This document shows, piece by piece, positions 203 to 22,316 of a DNA stretch of 36,439 bases. Position 1 is the stretch's first letter; each line of letters opens with the position of its first letter. The notes beneath the pieces were generated by a model, which had not been told where the DNA came from, did not search any database, and worked only from the letters and a program-made list of their open reading frames with translations. Made by a program: the position numbers and the translations under genes. Origin of the DNA: an uncultured Flavobacteriaceae bacterium (GTDB lineage Bacteria; Bacteroidota; Bacteroidia; Flavobacteriales; Flavobacteriaceae); NCBI GenBank assembly GCA_938009735.1, contig CALLIG010000156.1:1-36439 (forward strand), in the 5' to 3' direction.

Positions 203-230
203 GTTTAACTTAATTTAAAAATAGTTAAAC
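203..230. promoter_or_regulatory. Perfect 8-bp inverted repeat GTTTAACT-N12-AGTTAAAC, candidate operator upstream of the photolyase operon
   Basis: Read directly; lies just upstream of TATTTTTG (237-244), a match to the Bacteroidota -7 TAnnTTTG motif; similar repeat at 10057-10081. Confidence 0.5.
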
Positions 231-236
231 ATTTTG

Positions 237-244
237 TATTTTTG
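237..244 (+). promoter_or_regulatory. Candidate -7 promoter element (TATTTTTG) for the 280-7539 operon
   Basis: Matches TAnnTTTG, 35 nt before the first ATG at 280. Confidence 0.45.
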
Positions 245-279: not shown

Positions 280-444
280 ATGTTCGGATTCTTCAATAAG
301 AAATCAGAAAAAGAAAAACTGCAAGAACAATATGCAAAGTTTTTAAAAGAGGCACATTCGCTTTCTACTACGAATAGAAAGTTGAGTGATCAAAAAACAT
401 TTGAAGCTGAAGAAGTGATGAAACAAATTGAAAAGTTGAATTAA
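280..444 (+). CDS. Small Lacal_2735-like conserved protein (54 aa)
   Basis: Translated by hand: MFGFFNKKSEKEKLQEQYAKFLKEAHSLSTTNRKLSDQKTFEAEEVMKQIEKLN; below the ORF-track size cutoff. Confidence 0.75.
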   Translation: MFGFFNKKSEKEKLQEQYAKFLKEAHSLSTTNRKLSDQKTFEAEEVMKQIEKLN

Positions 445-460
445 TCGTTTGCATATAAGT

Positions 461-862
461 ATGGCAGAAGATAAAAAACCAGATCAGGTAGTTTTCAATA
501 CTGAAACCCAAAAATATGATGGGGCACTTAAACCTTACGCAACATCGGTGGGCGCACCAGTAATTACAACTACAGACACCATTGCATGGAAGAATAGGAG
601 CATCTCTAAAATTAATCACAAAGTTCAAGCAAGGTATCTTGAACTCAAAGAAGAATATGATAAAATGATGCAAGAGTTTGAGTACAATCAGCTCATTTTC
701 AATGCAAAATTTTCTTTTGAACCCATTTTCGGAGAGGTGTATCATTTGTACAAAAGAGAGAATGATGAAACCTTTCTTTCATTAATAGCTCCTGACCAAT
801 GTAGTTTTGATGCATTGGGTAGTTTTTATTTGAATGCGGACCAAATCTGGGAAAAAGTATAA
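461..862 (+). CDS. DUF2452 domain-containing protein
   Basis: ORF; internal Met at 461 preferred (MAEDKKPDQVVFNTETQKYDGALKPYATSVGAPVI). Confidence 0.75.
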   Translation: MAEDKKPDQVVFNTETQKYDGALKPYATSVGAPVITTTDTIAWKNRSISKINHKVQARYLELKEEYDKMMQEFEYNQLIFNAKFSFEPIFGEVYHLYKRENDETFLSLIAPDQCSFDALGSFYLNADQIWEKV

Positions 863-869
863 TTCAACT

Positions 870-1157
870 ATGGCAGAGACTAAAGAATTCACAGAGAGAG
901 AATTAGATCGAATTATAGAAATGGCTTGGGAAGACCGCACTCCTTTTGAAGCAATTTTATTTCAATTCGGACTACCCGAAAAAGAAGTGATCAAAGTGAT
1001 GCGCGGTAATCTAAAGGAATCAAGTTTCAAGCGATGGCGAAAAAGAGTAAACAGCGGTGTCAGCCAAAAGCATCTAAAAAAACGAAATCCGGATATTACA
1101 CGATTTAAATGCTCACGTCAAAAAGCAATATCAGGGAATAAAATAAGTAAACGGTAA
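870..1157 (+). CDS. TIGR03643 family protein
   Basis: ORF; start at 870 (MAETKEFTERELDRIIEMAWEDRTPFEAI...); family commonly adjacent to photolyase genes. Confidence 0.7.
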   Translation: MAETKEFTERELDRIIEMAWEDRTPFEAILFQFGLPEKEVIKVMRGNLKESSFKRWRKRVNSGVSQKHLKKRNPDITRFKCSRQKAISGNKISKR

Positions 1158-2276
1158 ATGAAATTATTTGAAGATAATAATTCTATCTTTCCAACCTCTT
1201 ATGCAGAAATACTTCAACGTGTTCGAAATATTGATCCTGTAAAATATGGATCTACGCGTAATTACATTAACGGTTCAGTAACTTATTTATCCCCCTATAT
1301 TTCAAGAGGAATAGTATCCACAAAATTTATTCTTTCACAAGTGCTAAATCGTGGCTATCAACCTGCACAAATCGAAAAATTTATTCAAGAATTAGCTTGG
1401 AGAGATTACTGGCAACAAGTTTGGATTGCTAAAGGAGATGCCATCAATCAAGATTTAAAACACCAACAAAACCCTGTTTCAAATACTTCAATTCCGAAGT
1501 CTATTGTTACATCAAATACCGGAATAGAAGCGATAGATACTTCGATTCAAGAGTTTTATAAGACGGGTTATTTGCATAATCACGTTCGAATGTACATTGC
1601 AGCAATAGCCTGTAATATGGCGCAAAGTCATTGGAAAGTACCAGCTCAATGGATGTACTATCATTTATTAGATGCCGATTGGGCAAGTAATGCATTGAGT
1701 TGGCAATGGGTTGCTGGTTCGAATGCAAATAAAAAATATGTAGCGAATCAAGATAACATCAATAAGTACTGTTTTACGCAGCAAAAGGACACTTTCTTAG
1801 ATCTGCCTTATGAAGCTTTTAATAGTTTGGAAATTCCTGATATTTTAATAGATACGCCGAAGCTATTGTTAGAAACCAATTTACCAAAACCTCATCCGAT
1901 TTCGATTGATGAAAAGCTTCCGACATGTATCTATAATTTTTATAACCTTGATCCGCTCTGGAAGAAGGATATCTCAGCAAATAGAATATTGCTACTAGAA
2001 CCTTCTCATTTTAAAGAATATCCTGTATCTGAAAAAACCATTGATTTTATAACTACATTTTCCAAAGAAAATATAGAAAACATACAAGTCTATGTTGGTG
2101 AGTTTAAAGACATGATTTCAACGAATAACATTGAAAGCGTCTATTACAAAGAGCATCCGCTAAATCATCATTATCAAGGCATTGAAGAATCTAGAGATTG
2201 GATGTTTGACGTGGAAGGCTACTACCCTTCTTTCTTTTCTTTTTGGAAAAAATGCAAAAAACAACTCCGCTATTGA
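1158..2276 (+). CDS. Photolyase/cryptochrome-superfamily FAD-binding protein with inverted topology (NewPHL-like)
   Basis: N-terminus begins directly with FAD-domain motifs ([67 protein letters not shown]); ~150-aa C-terminal domain ([22 protein letters not shown]...VYVGEF). Confidence 0.8.
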
Positions 2277-3730
2277 ATAAAGAAGCTGTAAATATTGTTT
2301 GGTTAAAACGAGACATTCGTTCGCAAGATCACGAGTCATTATTACGAGCAGAACAGGCTGGTATTCCGTATTATATTATTTACTTATTTGAACCTTCTAT
2401 CATTGAATATCCTGATACTAGCTCTAGGCATTTACAGTTTATCTATCATTCCATTTTAGCGCTAAATAAAACCCTTGAGCCTTTTAATAGATCTGTTTCT
2501 GTTTTCTACGGAGAAGCAATTAGCATTTTTGATTATTTACAGGAACGGTTTCACATAAAGAATGTTTTTAGTTATCGTGAAAGTGGTACGCTAATCACTT
2601 GGCAGCGTGACAAAATGGTGTCTTCATTTTGTAAAAAAAACGCCATAATATGGCAAGAATCACAACGAGACGGTGTTTTAAGAGGCATAAAAAATCGAGA
2701 TAACTGGAATAAACAATGGCATACTACCATGCACCAGCCTATTATTCAAAACAAGTATTCTATTGCCAAACATGAAGCATTAGCTCATTCCTTCGTAATT
2801 CCTGAGAAATTAGAGAAACAATTAAAAGCATATTCAAAACAGTTTCAGCCTGCTGGCGAGTCTAACGCTTGGCGGTATTTGAAATCATTTACCAATCAAA
2901 GAGGATTTAACTACCAAAAACATATTTCAAAGCCTACCGAGAGTAGAGTCTCTTGTAGTCGTTTATCACCATATTTAGCTTGGGGAAATCTAAGTATTAA
3001 ACAAGCTTTTCAGTTTGTTGGTACGCACCCTAATGGAACAAAAAACAGTAGGGCTTTTTCTGCCATGCTTACCAGGTTGCATTGGCATTGTCATTTCATT
3101 CAGAAATTTGAAGTAGAATGCCGTTATGAAACTCATTGTATTAATAGTGGTTACGAGCTACTACCCCATCAAAATAACGAAGCTTTTATAAAAGCTTGGA
3201 AAACTGGCACAACTGGCTACCCTTTAATAGATGCGTGTATGCGTGCCGTGGAACAAACTGGCTGGATTAATTTTAGAATGCGTGCTATGGTAGTTTCCTT
3301 TCTGACAATGAATTTAGATCAAGATTGGCGTGATGGCACATATCACTTGGCACGTCAATTTTTAGATTATGAACCTGGCATTCATTATCCGCAATTTCAA
3401 ATGCAAGCGGGCACTACAGGCATTAATACGGTGCGTTTGTACAATCCTGTGAAAAATTCGCAAGAACATGACCCTGAGGGGATATTCATCAAAAAATGGA
3501 TTCCTGAACTTGCAAACGTTCCTTTAGCTTACATTCATGAGCCTTGGACTATGTCTGCAATGGAGCAAACTTTTTGCGGAGTTATCTTAGGCGAGCACTA
3601 CCCCAGCCCTATTGTTGATTTGCAAGAAAGTGCACGAATTGCAAGAGACAAAATTTGGGGACATAAAAAGCATCCGGCTGTGCAAAAAGAAAAAAAGCGC
3701 ATCTTAAATACCCATGTCAATAGAAAATAA
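2243..3730 (+). CDS. Cryptochrome/deoxyribodipyrimidine photolyase family protein, classical topology
   Basis: N-terminal antenna domain ([19 protein letters not shown]) and FAD domain ([44 protein letters not shown]); start uncertain, overlaps upstream ORF. Confidence 0.85.
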
Positions 3731-4364
3731 CATGATATATACAAAAGAAGATATTGAAAAGCTGGACCGAGTAACCAAATTGAAAATCATCAATGCGGTC
3801 ACAGGAATAAAACCTGCAAACCTTATTGGTAGTATCAACAATAACAGACAGACCAACCTTGCGATATTTAGTTCAGTAGTCCATTTGGGTAGTTCCCCCG
3901 CCCTTTTGGGTTTTATCGCTAGGCCAAGTACTGCAGAAGTAGGACATACTTTTCGCAATATTCAAGAAAACGGATGCTACACCATCAATCACATTCACCC
4001 TGAATTCATAGAAAAAGGGCATTATACCTCCGCAAAATTTGATACTAGTATTTCAGAGTTTGATCGCTGTGGTCTTTCTGAAGAATATATTCCTGATTTT
4101 AAGGCGCCTTTTGTTAAAGAGAGTAGCTTTAAAATGGGTTTGCGCTTTATTGATGCGCTTGATATAAAACATAATGGCACCACTTTAGTTATTGGAGAAA
4201 TTCAACATTTGATTGTACCTGACGCCGCGATGATTAATGGTGATATCAATTTAGAGGCTTCAAATAGTGTTGGCATTTCAGGTTTAAACAGCTACTATTC
4301 ATTAAAAAAGATTAAAAGCCATCCGTACGTGCGAGTTAATGAAGTACCAGCATTTGACAAATGA
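3714..4364 (+). CDS. Flavin reductase family protein
   Basis: FMN-binding split-barrel flavin-reductase features ([40 protein letters not shown]); start could be 3714 or 3732. Confidence 0.75.
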
Positions 4365-4489
4365 AAAAGCAACACCTGCCTGAAAAAATATGCATCGTTT
4401 GTGAGCGTCCATTCACCTGGCGTAAGAAATGGGAAAAGAACTGGAACGAAGTAAAATATTGTAGTGAACGCTGCAGAAGAAATAAATGA
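4361..4489 (+). CDS. DUF2256 domain-containing small zinc-ribbon-like protein (42 aa)
   Basis: Translated by hand: [42 protein letters not shown]; CxxC...CxxxC; ATGA overlaps with both neighbours; below ORF-track cutoff. Confidence 0.85.
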
Positions 4490-5973
4490 AAAGTATCAAT
4501 ATCATATTTCCGCATCAACTATTTCAAGAATCTCCGCTTTTTGAAATAGATGCTCCTTTTTATATCATTGAAGAATATTTGTTTTTCAAGCAATACCCCT
4601 TCCACAAACAAAAAATAGCATTTCATAGGGCAACAATGAAAAGGTATGCAGATTTTCTTAGGAAGGAAAAAAACCAAAATGTACATTATGTTGAGGCTAC
4701 GGAACCTATTTCAGATATAAGGAAGCTCATACCTGAACTAAAAAACAAAGGCATTGAACATATCAATTATATTGACCCTACAGATAATTGGCTTCAAAAA
4801 AGAATAGACAATGGTTGTAGTGAAAATTCAATTTCAACCACCATTCATACCTCCCCATTATTTTTAAATACTAAAGAAGATCTAAGTGCCTTCTTTAGAG
4901 TGGATAAAAAGAAATACCATCAAACGACTTTTTACAAAGAGCAGCGTGAAAAGCGAAACATTCTCATAGATGCTGATGGAAAGCCAACAGGTGGTAAATG
5001 GACCTTTGATACCGAGAACAGAAAAAAATATCCTGCTAAAAAAACACCTCCTTCTATTCAATTTCCTGATGTGGACGATTATTATAAGGAAGCTAAGCAG
5101 TATGTTAAAAAACATTTCTCAAATCATTATGGAAGCCTAACCGATCATTCTTTATACCCAACAAATTTCGAAACAACTAATACATGGTTGCATCAATTTT
5201 TTGAGCAGCGCTTTATGGAGTTTGGTGTTTACGAAGATGCCATTGTTTCAGAAAATTCCATATTAAATCATAGCGTATTAACTCCGATGCTTAATGTGGG
5301 CTTATTAACACCTAAAGAAATTATTGATTCGTGTTTAATATATGCTGCAGATAATAATGTGCCTATTAATTCTACAGAAGGATTTGTGCGTCAAATTATA
5401 GGATGGCGAGAGTTTATAAGAGGTATTTACGAAGCTCGAGGTAGCGAAGAGCGAACGACTAATTTTTGGGGATTCAAAAAGAAAATTCCAGCTTCATTCT
5501 ATGATGGCACAACAGGTATTCCGCCGATTGACATAACCATTAAAAAGGTATTGCAAACTGGCTATTGCCATCATATTGAGCGTTTAATGGTACTTGGTAA
5601 TTTTATGATGCTCTGTGAATTTGATCCAGATGAAGTATACCAATGGTTTATGGAGCTTTTTATTGATTCTTATGATTGGGTTATGGTCACCAATATTTAC
5701 GGAATGAGCCAATTTGCTGATGGCGGTTTAATGGCAACCAAACCCTATATCAGCGGAAGTAATTACCTTATGAAAATGAGCAACTATAAAAAAGGAGATT
5801 GGCAAGCTACTTGGGATGGTCTATTTTGGAGATTTATGCATACTCACCGTGATTTCTTTTTATCAAATCCACGATTAGGCATGTTAGTACGTATGTTTGA
5901 TAAGATGGATGAACAGAAAAAACAAATGCATTTAAAAAATGGAGAAGCATTTTTAGAATCTTTAGCAAACTAA
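4486..5973 (+). CDS. Cryptochrome/photolyase family protein, FeS-BCP/PhrB-like (prokaryotic 6-4 photolyase clade)
   Basis: N-term [17 protein letters not shown]-term motifs [80 protein letters not shown]. Confidence 0.85.
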
Positions 5974-6435: not shown

Positions 6436-7539
6436 ATGAACATCATACTTACAGGAGCAACAGGTACATTAGGCTCTAGAGTGCTCTTCTCACTTTTAGA
6501 GCAGAAACTTGAAAAGATAAACCAGATTTATCTTTTGGTACGAAGTAAAGCAGCAACATCTCCGCATGAGCGTATTGAAAATATGTTGTCGAGCGAAAAT
6601 ATTCCGCAATTTATTAAAACTCATGGTCTTTCTATCCGTAAAAAGATTACGGTTGTTCATGCGAATACGATATTAGATCCGGCTTCTTTTTTAGAAAAAC
6701 AGCCCATTGATTATTTTATACACTCCGCAGGCTATGTAAATCTATCCACAAACCCCACCGCCAAAGCGGAAGTATTTCGTGAAAATTTTGATTTCACGAA
6801 AGCCATTTTTGAAGCTTATTCTGATCGTATCGCGAAATTTGTTTACATCAGTACAGCCTTCTCTTTTGGTGACAATGGTGGCGTTTTGAAAAATGATTAT
6901 TTTGAAAATAACACAGGAAACTATCGCAATCACTATGAAGCAGCAAAACATGCTTCTGAAAAATATATACTAACACAGGGAAAAGAAAAAAATATATCTA
7001 TACAAATATTACGACCAAGTGTGCTAGGTGGTAATATTGAAGAGGCACCTAATTTTTTTATTTCAAAGTATATGGTCTTCTATCTGTTTGCTAAGTTTTT
7101 CAATAATAATACGTCGAGCGATACAATTCGTATTTCAACCAATACTTTATCAGGACTCAATATCATACCAACAGATTATGCTGCCAATGTTATTGTAAAA
7201 GTATTTGAAAGCGATATACAGCAATTGAATATTGTAAATGCAAAGGAGACCAATATGATGAAAGGCATAACAAAAATATTAGATGCCGTTGGTTTTTCTA
7301 ATTTCACTTTTACCCAAGAGCAAATTACCTCAACAACCGGCTTCACTTCAAAACTTGAAGAGTTTTATTATGGCACCATTGGCGTACATCTTCATCCGTA
7401 TCTAAATTCAAAGCCTAATGAGTGGGATACTGCCTTATTAGAAAGTATACTGCCTATACCTTGTTATAATCTTGAGGATTATTTGTTACAGACTGTTTCC
7501 TTCGCTAAAGCTGCTAATTTTAGAAACCAAAAGTGGTAA
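6436..7539 (+). CDS. SDR family oxidoreductase (NAD-binding_4 / thioester-reductase-like)
   Basis: N-terminal Rossmann motif ILTGATGTLGSRVLFSLL, FVYISTAFSFG, YEAAKHASEKYI (YxxxK). Confidence 0.8.
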   Translation: MNIILTGATGTLGSRVLFSLLEQKLEKINQIYLLVRSKAATSPHERIENMLSSENIPQFIKTHGLSIRKKITVVHANTILDPASFLEKQPIDYFIHSAGYVNLSTNPTAKAEVFRENFDFTKAIFEAYSDRIAKFVYISTAFSFGDNGGVLKNDYFENNTGNYRNHYEAAKHASEKYILTQGKEKNISIQILRPSVLGGNIEEAPNFFISKYMVFYLFAKFFNNNTSSDTIRISTNTLSGLNIIPTDYAANVIVKVFESDIQQLNIVNAKETNMMKGITKILDAVGFSNFTFTQEQITSTTGFTSKLEEFYYGTIGVHLHPYLNSKPNEWDTALLESILPIPCYNLEDYLLQTVSFAKAANFRNQKW

Positions 7540-8079: not shown

Positions 8080-8180
8080 AGTTTTTAACTTTAAAGGTGG
8101 CTAAGCACCCATGCAATATTTTAATGTAAAAGTATTATTTTTGTTTAGCACATTGAGTTAAAAATTCAACAAAATTAATC

Positions 8181-9431
8181 ATGAACAAGCAAGACTATAA
8201 AATACATGTCATTGGCGCAGGAGTAAGTGGTCTTATTGCTGCCAAAGTTTTAGAAGATCATGGGTATTATCCTATTATACTTGAAGCAACCGATCGTGTT
8301 GGAGGTCGTGTAAAAACCGATCTTATAGAAGATTACCAACTTGACCATGGTTTTCAAGTGTTACTTACAGCTTATCCCGCTGCACAGAAATATTTAAATC
8401 TTGATGCGCTAGAATTACAGAAGTTTTTACCTGGTACAACTATATTTAATAGTGGTAAGAAACAGACTATTGGTGACCCTTTAAGGAATTTATCCTTACT
8501 ATTCCCAACCTTATTTTCAAGTATAGGAACGTTTTCAGACAAATTAAAGATCTTAAAACTCAATAGGCTTTTAAAGAAAACTACGTTAGATGAAATTTTT
8601 TCAAAAACAGAAAAAACCACATATCAATATTTAGTAGATTTTGGATTTTCTTCAGAAATGATTTCTCAATTTTTTACTCCTTTCTTTAGTGGAATATTTC
8701 TAGAATCACAATTAGAGACCTCAAGTAGAATGTTTGAGTTTGTTTACAAAATGTTTGGAGAAGGTTTTGCAGCATTACCGAAAGCTGGTATTGAAGCCAT
8801 ACCAATGCAACTCAAAGCCAATTTAAAAGAGACCAATTTTCGATTTGACACAAAGGTAACAGCTGTAAAAGATGGTAAAATATTTCTTGATGATACTACT
8901 GAACTTGAGAGTCATTTTACGGTGATTGCCACAGCACCAAGTAAATTAGTTGCCAATTTAAAAAATCAAGATACCCAATGGAAATCTTGCGACACCTTAT
9001 ATTTTGAGACTGATAAGAACCTTATTGAGAAACCACTTATTGGTTTAGTTGCAGATAAAGATGCACTTATTAATAATATATTTTATCATACCAGCATTGC
9101 CTCAAAATCTAGTGGTGCAAAAGAATTAGTATCTGTTACTATTGTCAAAAATCACGATTTATCAGAAGATGCTCTTAGAATTCGAATTCAACAGGAATTA
9201 CAAGACTATTGCGGCATAACCTCCTGTAAATTTATTAAACACTATCATATTCCTCAGGCGTTACCAAAATTAAATGAATTGCAAAATGAAATGCTACCTT
9301 CAGAGACAAGATTGACAACCGGTATCTTCTTAGCTGGGGATATGCAACTTAATGGATCATTAAATGCTGCGATGATAGCCGGAGAAAGAGCAGCACTTGG
9401 TATTATTGAAACACTTACTAATTCGATTTAA
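8181..9431 (+). CDS. NAD(P)/FAD-dependent oxidoreductase (amine oxidase/phytoene desaturase-like)
   Basis: IHVIGAGVSGLIAAKVLEDHGYYPIILEATDRVGGRVKTD dinucleotide-binding motif. Confidence 0.85.
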   Translation: MNKQDYKIHVIGAGVSGLIAAKVLEDHGYYPIILEATDRVGGRVKTDLIEDYQLDHGFQVLLTAYPAAQKYLNLDALELQKFLPGTTIFNSGKKQTIGDPLRNLSLLFPTLFSSIGTFSDKLKILKLNRLLKKTTLDEIFSKTEKTTYQYLVDFGFSSEMISQFFTPFFSGIFLESQLETSSRMFEFVYKMFGEGFAALPKAGIEAIPMQLKANLKETNFRFDTKVTAVKDGKIFLDDTTELESHFTVIATAPSKLVANLKNQDTQWKSCDTLYFETDKNLIEKPLIGLVADKDALINNIFYHTSIASKSSGAKELVSVTIVKNHDLSEDALRIRIQQELQDYCGITSCKFIKHYHIPQALPKLNELQNEMLPSETRLTTGIFLAGDMQLNGSLNAAMIAGERAALGIIETLTNSI

Positions 9432-9446: not shown

Positions 9447-9809
9447 CTAGCTAATAGCTTCATATTGTTTTAGAAGCTCCAATGAAGTATAGTCTAATGC
9501 CTTTTGAGATGTTCCTTCTAGAATTACTTTTGGCGCGAAGCCTGCTTTTTCAGCCGCTAACCATCGCGATATACATAGGCACCATTTCGAACCCGCAACG
9601 AGTCCAGGAAACTGCCATTGCGGTTTAGGAGTGCTTAAATCATTTCCTTTTGATTTGGTATACGCTAAGAATTCGGTAGTCATAATTGCACATACAACAT
9701 GCGTTCCTGCGTCTTGAGATATCGTACGACAGAATCCATCTCTAAAATATCCTGTTACAGGATCAGTACAACACGGCTCTAGTTTAGTACCTAGAACATT
9801 TAATTCCAT
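9447..9809 (-). CDS. DUF2237 family protein
   Basis: MELNVLGTKLEPCCTDPVTGYFRDGFCRTISQDAGTHVVCAIMTTEFLAYTKSKGNDLSTP; WQFPGLVAGSKWCLCISRW. Confidence 0.85.
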   Translation of the reverse strand: MELNVLGTKLEPCCTDPVTGYFRDGFCRTISQDAGTHVVCAIMTTEFLAYTKSKGNDLSTPKPQWQFPGLVAGSKWCLCISRWLAAEKAGFAPKVILEGTSQKALDYTSLELLKQYEAIS

Positions 9810-9812
9810 GTA

Positions 9813-10040
9813 TTAAAATGAAGACTCTGGTCTTCCTTTTAAACGTTTTTCAATTTTCTTTTTCTTAACAGTTAAACGCTTCATCATATCCATTACACTA
9901 TCATCCTTAGATTCTTTAAAAATCTCATTTAATGCAAGTATTAGACGCTTAGCCTCTCTTGAAGCATTTACTCTGTCACTAGTGGTCATATTGCTCATCT
10001 TAGCCTTCTCAAATTCTAGCGCTTCGTTCATTAAGTCCAT
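9813..10040 (-). CDS. Small conserved hypothetical protein (75 aa, helical, basic)
   Basis: ORF with 3-nt gap to DUF2237 gene; promoter-like motif upstream. Confidence 0.6.
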   Translation of the reverse strand: MDLMNEALEFEKAKMSNMTTSDRVNASREAKRLILALNEIFKESKDDSVMDMMKRLTVKKKKIEKRLKGRPESSF

Positions 10041-10056: not shown

Positions 10057-10081
10057 GTTTAATTTACAAATTTAGTTAAAC
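10057..10081. promoter_or_regulatory. Inverted repeat GTTTAATT-N9-AGTTAAAC overlapping candidate -7 element (TAAATTTG on minus strand, 10067-10074)
   Basis: Shares TCGTTTAA and TAGTTAAACAT with the repeat at 203-230; upstream of minus-strand gene at 10040. Confidence 0.45.
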
Positions 10082-19572: not shown

Positions 19573-19627
19573 AGTCAATTTTGATATAAATTATGTTCAA
19601 TTATTTTTATATAAAATTAAACTAAAA

Positions 19628-20520: not shown

Positions 20521-21102
20521 TTAATTAGTCAGTACTATATTATTCTTATCTATTATTTTTCGCAGGTTAATTAAGGCATATCTCATTCTACCAAGTGCGG
20601 TATTGATACTGACACCAGTATTTTCAGAGATTTCTTTAAAACTCATGTCTTTATAAATACGCATTAAAAGCACTTCTTTCTGATCATCTGGTAATTCTTC
20701 AATTAAATCTCTTAAATCAGAATCAATTTGATCTTTAATGATTTGTTTTTCGGCATTTAACTTATCGTCACCAATTACTGAGAAGATATTGAAGTCATCA
20801 TTACCTTCAAACTTGGGCATTCTTTTGTTTTTTCTAAAATGATCAATGATCAAGTTATGTGCAATTCTCATTACCCATGGCAAAAATTTACCCTCTTCAC
20901 TATAAGATCCTTTCTTTAAGGTCTTGATTACTTTAATAAAGGTATCTTGAAAGATATCTTCAGTAATATCTCTATCCAATACTTTTGAATAGATAAAACT
21001 TGTAATACGCTGGTTATGTCTGTTGATTAAAACTTCTAACGATTTTTCATCTCCACTAATGTAATCTCTTACTAGTACTGAGTCTTCAATCTGATTTTCC
21101 AT
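20521..21102 (-). CDS. RNA polymerase ECF sigma-70 factor (copy 1)
   Basis: TEDIFQDTFIKVIKTL, GKFLPWVMRIAHNLIIDHFRKNKR, MSFKEISENTGVSINTALGRMRYALINLRK; start set to 21102 by ungapped alignment with copy 2 (ORF extends to 21162). Confidence 0.9.
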   Translation of the reverse strand: MENQIEDSVLVRDYISGDEKSLEVLINRHNQRITSFIYSKVLDRDITEDIFQDTFIKVIKTLKKGSYSEEGKFLPWVMRIAHNLIIDHFRKNKRMPKFEGNDDFNIFSVIGDDKLNAEKQIIKDQIDSDLRDLIEELPDDQKEVLLMRIYKDMSFKEISENTGVSINTALGRMRYALINLRKIIDKNNIVLTN

Positions 21103-21463
21103 GCGAGTAGGTTTTTTAGTTAAAGTTTGGGACTCTCTGTTTGAAAGTTTTTTTTGAGCCATTTGGTTACTTTTTGAGTTTAATTTTAAATCTTAGCATT
21201 ATTGCGTCGATTTTCAATTATGACCTAAAACTATATATATCGGGGCGATCGAAAAAAAACTTGTTGTCAAACTAGCAGTTTATGATGTGAAAACGCACTT
21301 TTCTATTTTTAAACAAAATAAAGTGCACAAGATGGCGTTATCATCTCTTCGTTTTCAAGAAGTCGTTCGTCGATGTTTTTAGGCATTTTATCGACATGTA
21401 CATGACTACATTGAATATTCAAACAACACCTACAAGCTAAATCTTACATAATGTGAAGCACAA

Positions 21464-21734: not shown

Positions 21735-22316
21735 TTAATTCGTTAAAACAATATTATTCTCATTTATGATCTTTCTAAGGTTGATTAATGCGTAGCGCAT
21801 TCTACCTAAAGCTGTATTAATACTTACACCAGTATTTTCCGAAATTTCCTTAAAACTCATGTCCTTATATATACGCATCATTAATACTTCTCTTTGATCC
21901 ACAGGTAACTCCTCTATTAAAGCAGTTAGATCACAATCTATTTGATCTTTGATTAGTTGACTTTCAATGTTTAATTTTTCATCGCCCATTACAGAGAAGA
22001 TATTAAAACTATCTCCACCAGTATACATTGGCATTCTTCTATTCTTTCTAAAATGATCAATAATAAGATTATGCGCAATGCGCATTACCCAAGGTAAAAA
22101 TTTACCTTCTTCATTATAAGTACCTCTTTTCAGCGTTCGTATAACTTTAATAAAAGTGTCTTGAAAAATATCTTCAGTAATACCTCGGTCATTGACCTTT
22201 GAATAAATAAAACTACTGATGCGTTGATTGTGCCTGTTGATGAGTGCTTCTAGTGCTCTTTCATCTCCGGCAATGTATCTCTGAATTAAAATGGGGTCGT
22301 CAATCTTTACTTCCAT
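21735..22316 (-). CDS. RNA polymerase ECF sigma-70 factor (copy 2)
   Basis: Near-duplicate of 20521-21102, both 193 aa and alignable without gaps. Confidence 0.92.
   Translation of the reverse strand: MEVKIDDPILIQRYIAGDERALEALINRHNQRISSFIYSKVNDRGITEDIFQDTFIKVIRTLKRGTYNEEGKFLPWVMRIAHNLIIDHFRKNRRMPMYTGGDSFNIFSVMGDEKLNIESQLIKDQIDCDLTALIEELPVDQREVLMMRIYKDMSFKEISENTGVSINTALGRMRYALINLRKIINENNIVLTN

Follow-up and report, generated by a model that had tools for sequence, protein, structure and literature searches.

The inverted repeat at positions 203 to 230 of the window (the whole 36,439-nucleotide stretch analyzed here, contig C156 of an assembly of 390 contigs that is 84.8% complete) is very probably the operator of a photoreceptor-repressor of the CarH/LitR type. 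The computed support comprises the motif, its conservation, its promoter phasing, its co-occurrence with CarH, and the signature residues and fold of the regulator. From these results we infer that CarH would be the binding protein, that it would repress, and that AdoCbl and light would be the signal.

A conserved inverted repeat overlaps the predicted photolyase operon promoter

As the sequence-only reading had claimed, the repeat has perfect 8-bp arms, with GTTTAACT at positions 203 to 210 and AGTTAAAC at 223 to 230 enclosing a 12-bp loop. A perfect 8-bp inverted repeat is by itself nothing special, because the window contains 59 overlapping matches of this type (loops of 0 to 20 bp), many of them terminator-like. 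It is the motif that marks this repeat out. The repeat fits the family pattern GTTTAAY-N14-RTTAAAC and is the single match to GTTTAAC-N8..14-GTTAAAC in the window (expectation, 0.02). A symmetric weight matrix built from 50 sites, all of them in other genomes, gave it 36.4, the top of the window, compared to a peak of 17.7 across 60 random windows generated from a first-order Markov background. The earlier claim of a -7-like element beyond the repeat, with the repeat over the expected -33 element, was also borne out: TATTTTTG lies 6 bp 3′ of the repeat, which spans about -45 to -18 of the predicted promoter, i.e., the -33 position, as reckoned from the sequence. AT-rich intergenic DNA and the many inverted repeats in the window could suggest a chance palindrome; however, given the expectation per window and a fixed promoter phase that is conserved before orthologous operons in other genera, we regard the probability of chance as negligible.

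The operon downstream begins with a gene for a small Lacal_2735 family protein, after which come the DUF2452, TIGR03643/DUF2805, and photolyase genes (Table 1). The TIGR03643/DUF2805 protein has a helix-turn-helix look and recurs in light-type operons. The oxidoreductase gene at 6436 to 7539 likely belongs to the photolyase block. Upstream of the repeat, a hairpin (TGCCCACT..AGTGGGCA, 62 to 88) followed by a T-run is likely a terminator that parts the photolyase promoter from the upstream genes. Elsewhere in the window, two adjacent near-duplicate sigma-factor-like genes were observed on the minus strand (20521 to 21162 and 21735 to 22316).

Table 1. Candidate operators, promoter elements, and associated genes in the window
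Feature	Position	Strand	Remarks
Proposed CarH operator, class I, GTTTAAC-N14-GTTAAAC	203..230; arms 203-209 and 224-230	.	Pattern, matrix, promoter phase
-7 promoter element TATTTTTG	237..244	+	34 bp from operator start, the spacing in orthologous operons
Lacal_2735 family small protein (DUF6435)	280..444	+	First gene of operon
DUF2452 protein	461..862	+	
TIGR03643/DUF2805 protein	870..1157	+	HTH-like by eye
Short photolyase/cryptochrome-like protein (FAD_binding_7)	1158..2276	+	
Photolyase/cryptochrome (DNA_photolyase and FAD_binding_7)	2243..3730	+	
Flavin reductase-like protein	3714..4364	+	
DPRP-type photolyase-related protein	4486..5973	+	
NAD-dependent epimerase/Male-sterility-type oxidoreductase	6436..7539	+	
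-7 element TATTTTTG	8136..8143	+	Last G is first base of 8143 site; phase as at carH
Second, weaker candidate operator GTTTAGCACATTGAGTTAAAAATTCAAC	8143..8170	.	Matrix 20.0; random-window maximum 17.7
FAD amine oxidoreductase (Amino_oxidase)	8181..9431	+	
75-aa protein gene, then DUF2237 (9447-9809)	9813..10040	-	
Related repeat, N11 spacing, just before start of 75-aa protein gene	10057..10081	.	Standing uncertain
Weak candidate site, one mismatch	19595..19622	.	Matrix 24.5; between peroxiredoxin (-) and endonuclease-III-like (+) genes

Other candidate sites in the window and its genome

The sequence-only reading had named a related repeat at 10057 to 10081. The shared words are present, but its standing as a site of this type is doubtful, because its arms lie 3 bp closer together (N11 rather than N14), and it was dropped as an equal site on this spacing. 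It may be a 3-bp-shortened copy of the 28-bp site, since a paralogue of the adjacent 75-aa gene on contig C326 (L030:2510-2737) has a 28-bp site just upstream (two mismatches; score, 20.6). Homologues of the 75-aa protein were also found inside motif-bearing operons of other genomes. The better second candidate is the site at 8143 to 8170, located between divergent glutathione peroxidase (minus strand) and FAD amine oxidoreductase (plus strand) genes, where the promoter phasing is carH-like. The FAD amine oxidoreductase gene starts about 10 bp past the site, as in the carH phase, and is likely its target. The promoter phase of the weak candidate at 19595 to 19622 is not typical.

Exact matches to GTTTAAY-N14-RTTAAAC numbered five in the genome of the window, compared to zero for the reversed control. 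Four of these front the photolyase operon of the window, an SRPBCC-SDR-photolyase operon (L028), a fasciclin gene (L030), and a TetR-ABC1-kinase pair (L027); the fifth (L031, contig C102) had a matrix score of 5.0 and is likely due to chance. On contig C13, a pair of fasciclin-type genes has two one-mismatch sites between them. Looser scans of this genome were uninformative (15 sites versus 10 in the control with one mismatch and 15 versus 12). We counted the low number of sites in this genome against CarH as the regulator.

Two further sites in this genome were observed. A near-perfect site at L032:5264-5291 (G000:C74; score, 26.5) precedes a gene for a 153-aa secreted-type protein with no assigned family. 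A one-mismatch site at L033:2705-2732 (G000:C107:60704-60731) is flanked by a cobalamin riboswitch and TonB receptor on one side and a btuFCD-like Peripla_BP_2-FecCD uptake operon on the other. A longer palindrome at this place, GTTTAATCTTT..AAAGATTAAAT, is kept with small changes in L313, L314, L321, and L336. Here, CarH may control the import of its own cofactor, or a different regulator may act.

A CarH/LitR-type regulator is encoded outside the window

The proposal that a LitR/CarH-type MerR regulator is encoded outside the window was supported. Contig C247 carries a gene (L035:1480-2376) for a 298-aa protein with MerR_1 and B12-binding_2 domains, and this gene heads an operon with crtI-like, crtB-like (SQS_PSY), and hydroxylase genes downstream. 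The protein was found via its MerR-type N-terminal DNA-binding domain (PF13411, E = 1.2e-12); a PF02310 scan missed it at its locus and detected just two B12 proteins elsewhere in the genome. Comparison with Thermus CarH (3whp and 5c8d) by phmmer gave an E value of about 3e-12, and the closest named CarH loci are from Flavobacteriaceae.

Both GxxWx9EH (here W143-x9-E153-H154) and ExHxxG were present in 43/43 aligned orthologues; in the full B12 motif (ExHx2Gx41SxV/Tx22-27GG), SxV/T and GG were not conserved. The residue after the signature Trp is Gln in 42 of the 43 orthologues and His in many CarH proteins. We counted both of these departures against CarH. The published light signature consists of GxxW, EH, GxxH, and GxxxP (PMC11796333); in this protein, GxxH reads NxxH and the other three elements are present. 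In an AlphaFold model of the orthologue L231 (pLDDT = 87.7), the top twelve PDB matches were all Thermus CarH, and the model predicts the CarH fold, a four-helix bundle and a Rossmann B12 domain. A different MerR protein, MliR (PMC9478572), was set aside and is not this regulator.

We also detected a site at the carH-crtI junction (at most one mismatch) in 16/80 named loci, compared to 0/80 in the control, for example in Kordia aestuariivivens, Flavobacterium soli, and Algibacter luteus. Among these 80, the junction site was absent in the loci closest to the CarH of this genome. The carH-crtI operon of this genome itself has one good arm and a start-codon arm (matrix score, 9.4), and this was counted against CarH.

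The motif follows CarH across the Flavobacteriaceae

We scanned 81 Flavobacteriaceae genomes for the motif, with the reversed motif as a control and strong CarH orthologues defined by a score of >190 bits. Across the 57 genomes with a strong CarH, 167 sites were detected compared to 30 in the control (Wilcoxon P = 4e-10), so the motif does not occur at the frequency of the AT-rich background. Enrichment was not clear in the other 24 genomes (15 versus 7, P = 0.054). The motif is also conserved upstream of the orthologous operons in other genera.

Two other proteins could in principle bind the site. The first is a TetR-family regulator (PF17931) encoded with the ABC1 kinase, with CarH merely sharing its neighborhood; in many genomes the site lies 30 to 40 bp upstream of the TetR gene, as for an autoregulated repressor. 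If this were the TetR operator, enrichment should need TetR, yet 12 strong-CarH genomes without a TetR match keep 28 sites (3 in the control), alongside 139 sites (27 in the control) in the 45 genomes with both strong CarH and TetR. In three genomes without a TetR match (G073, G019, and G079), sites still precede fasciclin, crtI, or SRPBCC-photolyase genes. Conversely, the 6 genomes with TetR but only weak CarH have 4 sites (3 in the control). This co-occurrence speaks against the site as a PF17931 operator, and we consider TetR binding highly improbable. Numbers were low in genomes with weak CarH and no TetR (two genomes, 0 versus 0) and in those with neither protein (14 genomes, 6 versus 4). 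Two genomes with TetR and without CarH have 5 sites (0 in the control), four of them in G080, an 81% complete assembly with no CarH match; we counted G080 against CarH.

The second is the helix-turn-helix-like TIGR03643/DUF2805 protein, which is encoded with the photolyases and is frequent in site-bearing operons. However, 19 strong-CarH genomes without a match to this protein have 40 sites compared to 8 in the control (P = 5e-4), which leaves its role as the binder scarcely credible. Given the motif counts in the groups defined by CarH, TetR, and TIGR03643, we conclude that the motif follows CarH across the family.

For part of the genomes, we identified the genes next to the sites by BLAST, with proteins of the window's genome as references. 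Among the matches listed, 50/69 annotated sites in strong-CarH genomes and G080 had a regulon-type neighbor, as did 0/5 sites in the no-CarH genomes G003, G030, G060, and G061, where 3/5 were intragenic. The neighbors were of several kinds: Lacal_2735-DUF2452-TIGR03643-photolyase operons; operons of a 142-aa protein, TIGR03643, a 231-aa protein, and the 75-aa protein; TetR-ABC1-flavin reductase; fasciclin; carH; crtI-crtB-hydroxylase; and SRPBCC-photolyase. Of the target classes suggested by the sequence-only reading, photolyase and carotenoid genes were thus recovered, while rhodopsin and folE genes were not seen among the targets. A second, weaker group of CarH-like proteins (about 30 to 39% identity) was observed in G007, G014, G025, G028, G032, G038, G040, and G067, where the motif is not enriched; this group may use another operator.

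Operator architecture and promoter phase

The sites hold fixed positions relative to the promoter. The -7 element TAnnTTTR starts at +34 in 21 of 54 oriented sites, those of photolyase, TetR, and TIGR03643 operons (class I), and at +14 in a further 17, those of crtI and fasciclin (class II). At carH promoters, the final base of the -7 element is also the first base of the left arm (-7 phase), and the start codon coincides with the second arm: in 62/80 named loci, GTTWAA stands at exactly -22 from the carH start codon, after which come the rest of the arm, N14, and nATGAACA, which contains TnnACA. Three Flavobacterium-type loci (L288, L301, and L309) have ATAAACAAT in place of ATGAACAAT at the start of carH, giving a perfect TAAACA half-site; an ATA start codon or a shifted start is possible there. 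The +34, +14, and -7 phases differ by 20 to 21 bp, about two helical turns, as does the distance from arm to arm.

Flanks outside the search pattern were conserved in the 54 oriented sites (T at -1, 98%; A at +28, 96%). RTTAAAC with this A reads TAAACA, so that the CarH core TnnACA is present in each arm. Only two arms are conserved, inverted and 21 bp apart, and no tandem 11-bp direct repeats (nAnnTnnACAn) were found. In loci fetched by protein, spacer length peaks at 14.

Sites over the -33 region, the -7 element, or the start codon fit repression. CarH could instead bind and mainly activate, in the classic MerR-like manner, given that the operators of class I promoters stand in place of the -33 region, where inspection showed no clear TTG. 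However, a protein bound at class II or carH-type sites would sit on the -7 element or the start codon and block there, and known CarH/LitR proteins repress (PMC8156234, PMC9758184). We consider activation as the main mode to be most unlikely.

Discussion

By analogy with CarH (PMC8156234), we propose repression through binding over the promoter in the dark and release in the light. In the dark, AdoCbl-CarH would bind both inverted arms, each with its TnnACA half-site, and at 203 to 230 it would thereby block RNA polymerase. Light would break the Co-C bond and release CarH, and the photolyase operon would be transcribed. The same CarH would also control crtI-crtB, its own gene, the TetR-ABC1-kinase pair, the fasciclin gene, and the second photolyase operon.

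The predicted system has much in common with the AdoCbl photoreceptor-repressors of Thermus thermophilus, Bacillus megaterium, and myxobacteria: a MerR-type DNA-binding domain with a B12-binding domain, Wx9EH and ExHxxG, linkage to carotenoid genes, an operator over -35 or -10, and the TnnACA half-site core. For CarH, the literature describes both this core and operators that extend over -35 or -10 (PMC9304148, PMC8156234). In contrast to the three or four tandem 11-bp direct repeats (nAnnTnnACAn) of CarH operators in the literature, the flavobacterial half-sites are inverted and 21 bp apart, which we also counted against CarH. The regulon also differs in its photolyase and fasciclin operons, and the protein differs in having Gln for His after the Trp and degenerate SxV/T and GG. 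Class II LitR proteins (PplR1 of Pseudomonas putida and PmlR2 of P. mendocina) are likewise of the LitR family, target photolyase, short-chain dehydrogenase, and cryptochrome genes, and use paired half-sites at a fixed spacing overlapping -35. However, their operator, T(G/A)TACA-N12-TGTA(C/T)A (PMC9758184), does not match GTTTAAY-N14-RTTAAAC, and class II LitR works with a LOV protein. Because it is unlike both the CarH direct repeats and the class II LitR operator, the flavobacterial site is a variant.

Light-induced carotenoid genes of another flavobacterium have been reported in the crt cluster of Chryseobacterium lacus; that study detected neither car nor lit operon genes, left the regulator open, and described no operator (PMC7064467). 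In the literature searched, with subscription journals mostly outside it, we found no description of the flavobacterial site or of a light-responsive regulator or operator for flavobacterial photolyase and carotenoid genes.

More tentatively, flavobacterial CarH might have an operator class of its own, an inverted TnnACA pair two turns apart that is placed on promoters only at phases separated by two turns (-7 element at -7, +14, or +34). It might control a sunlight regulon shared across the family that comprises repair, carotenoids, and fasciclins, perhaps with cofactor import via the btuFCD-like site, and its photochemistry might be altered, since Gln takes the place of the light-state His ligand.

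Among the heterotrophs of the sunlit ocean, flavobacteria are a major group. The motif supplies targets throughout the family that are ready for testing and ties light sensing to vitamin B12 supply. It offers a candidate inverted CarH operator to set beside the direct-repeat operators already described, and it places TIGR03643, DUF2452, Lacal_2735, and the fasciclins, families of unknown function, in the context of a light response.
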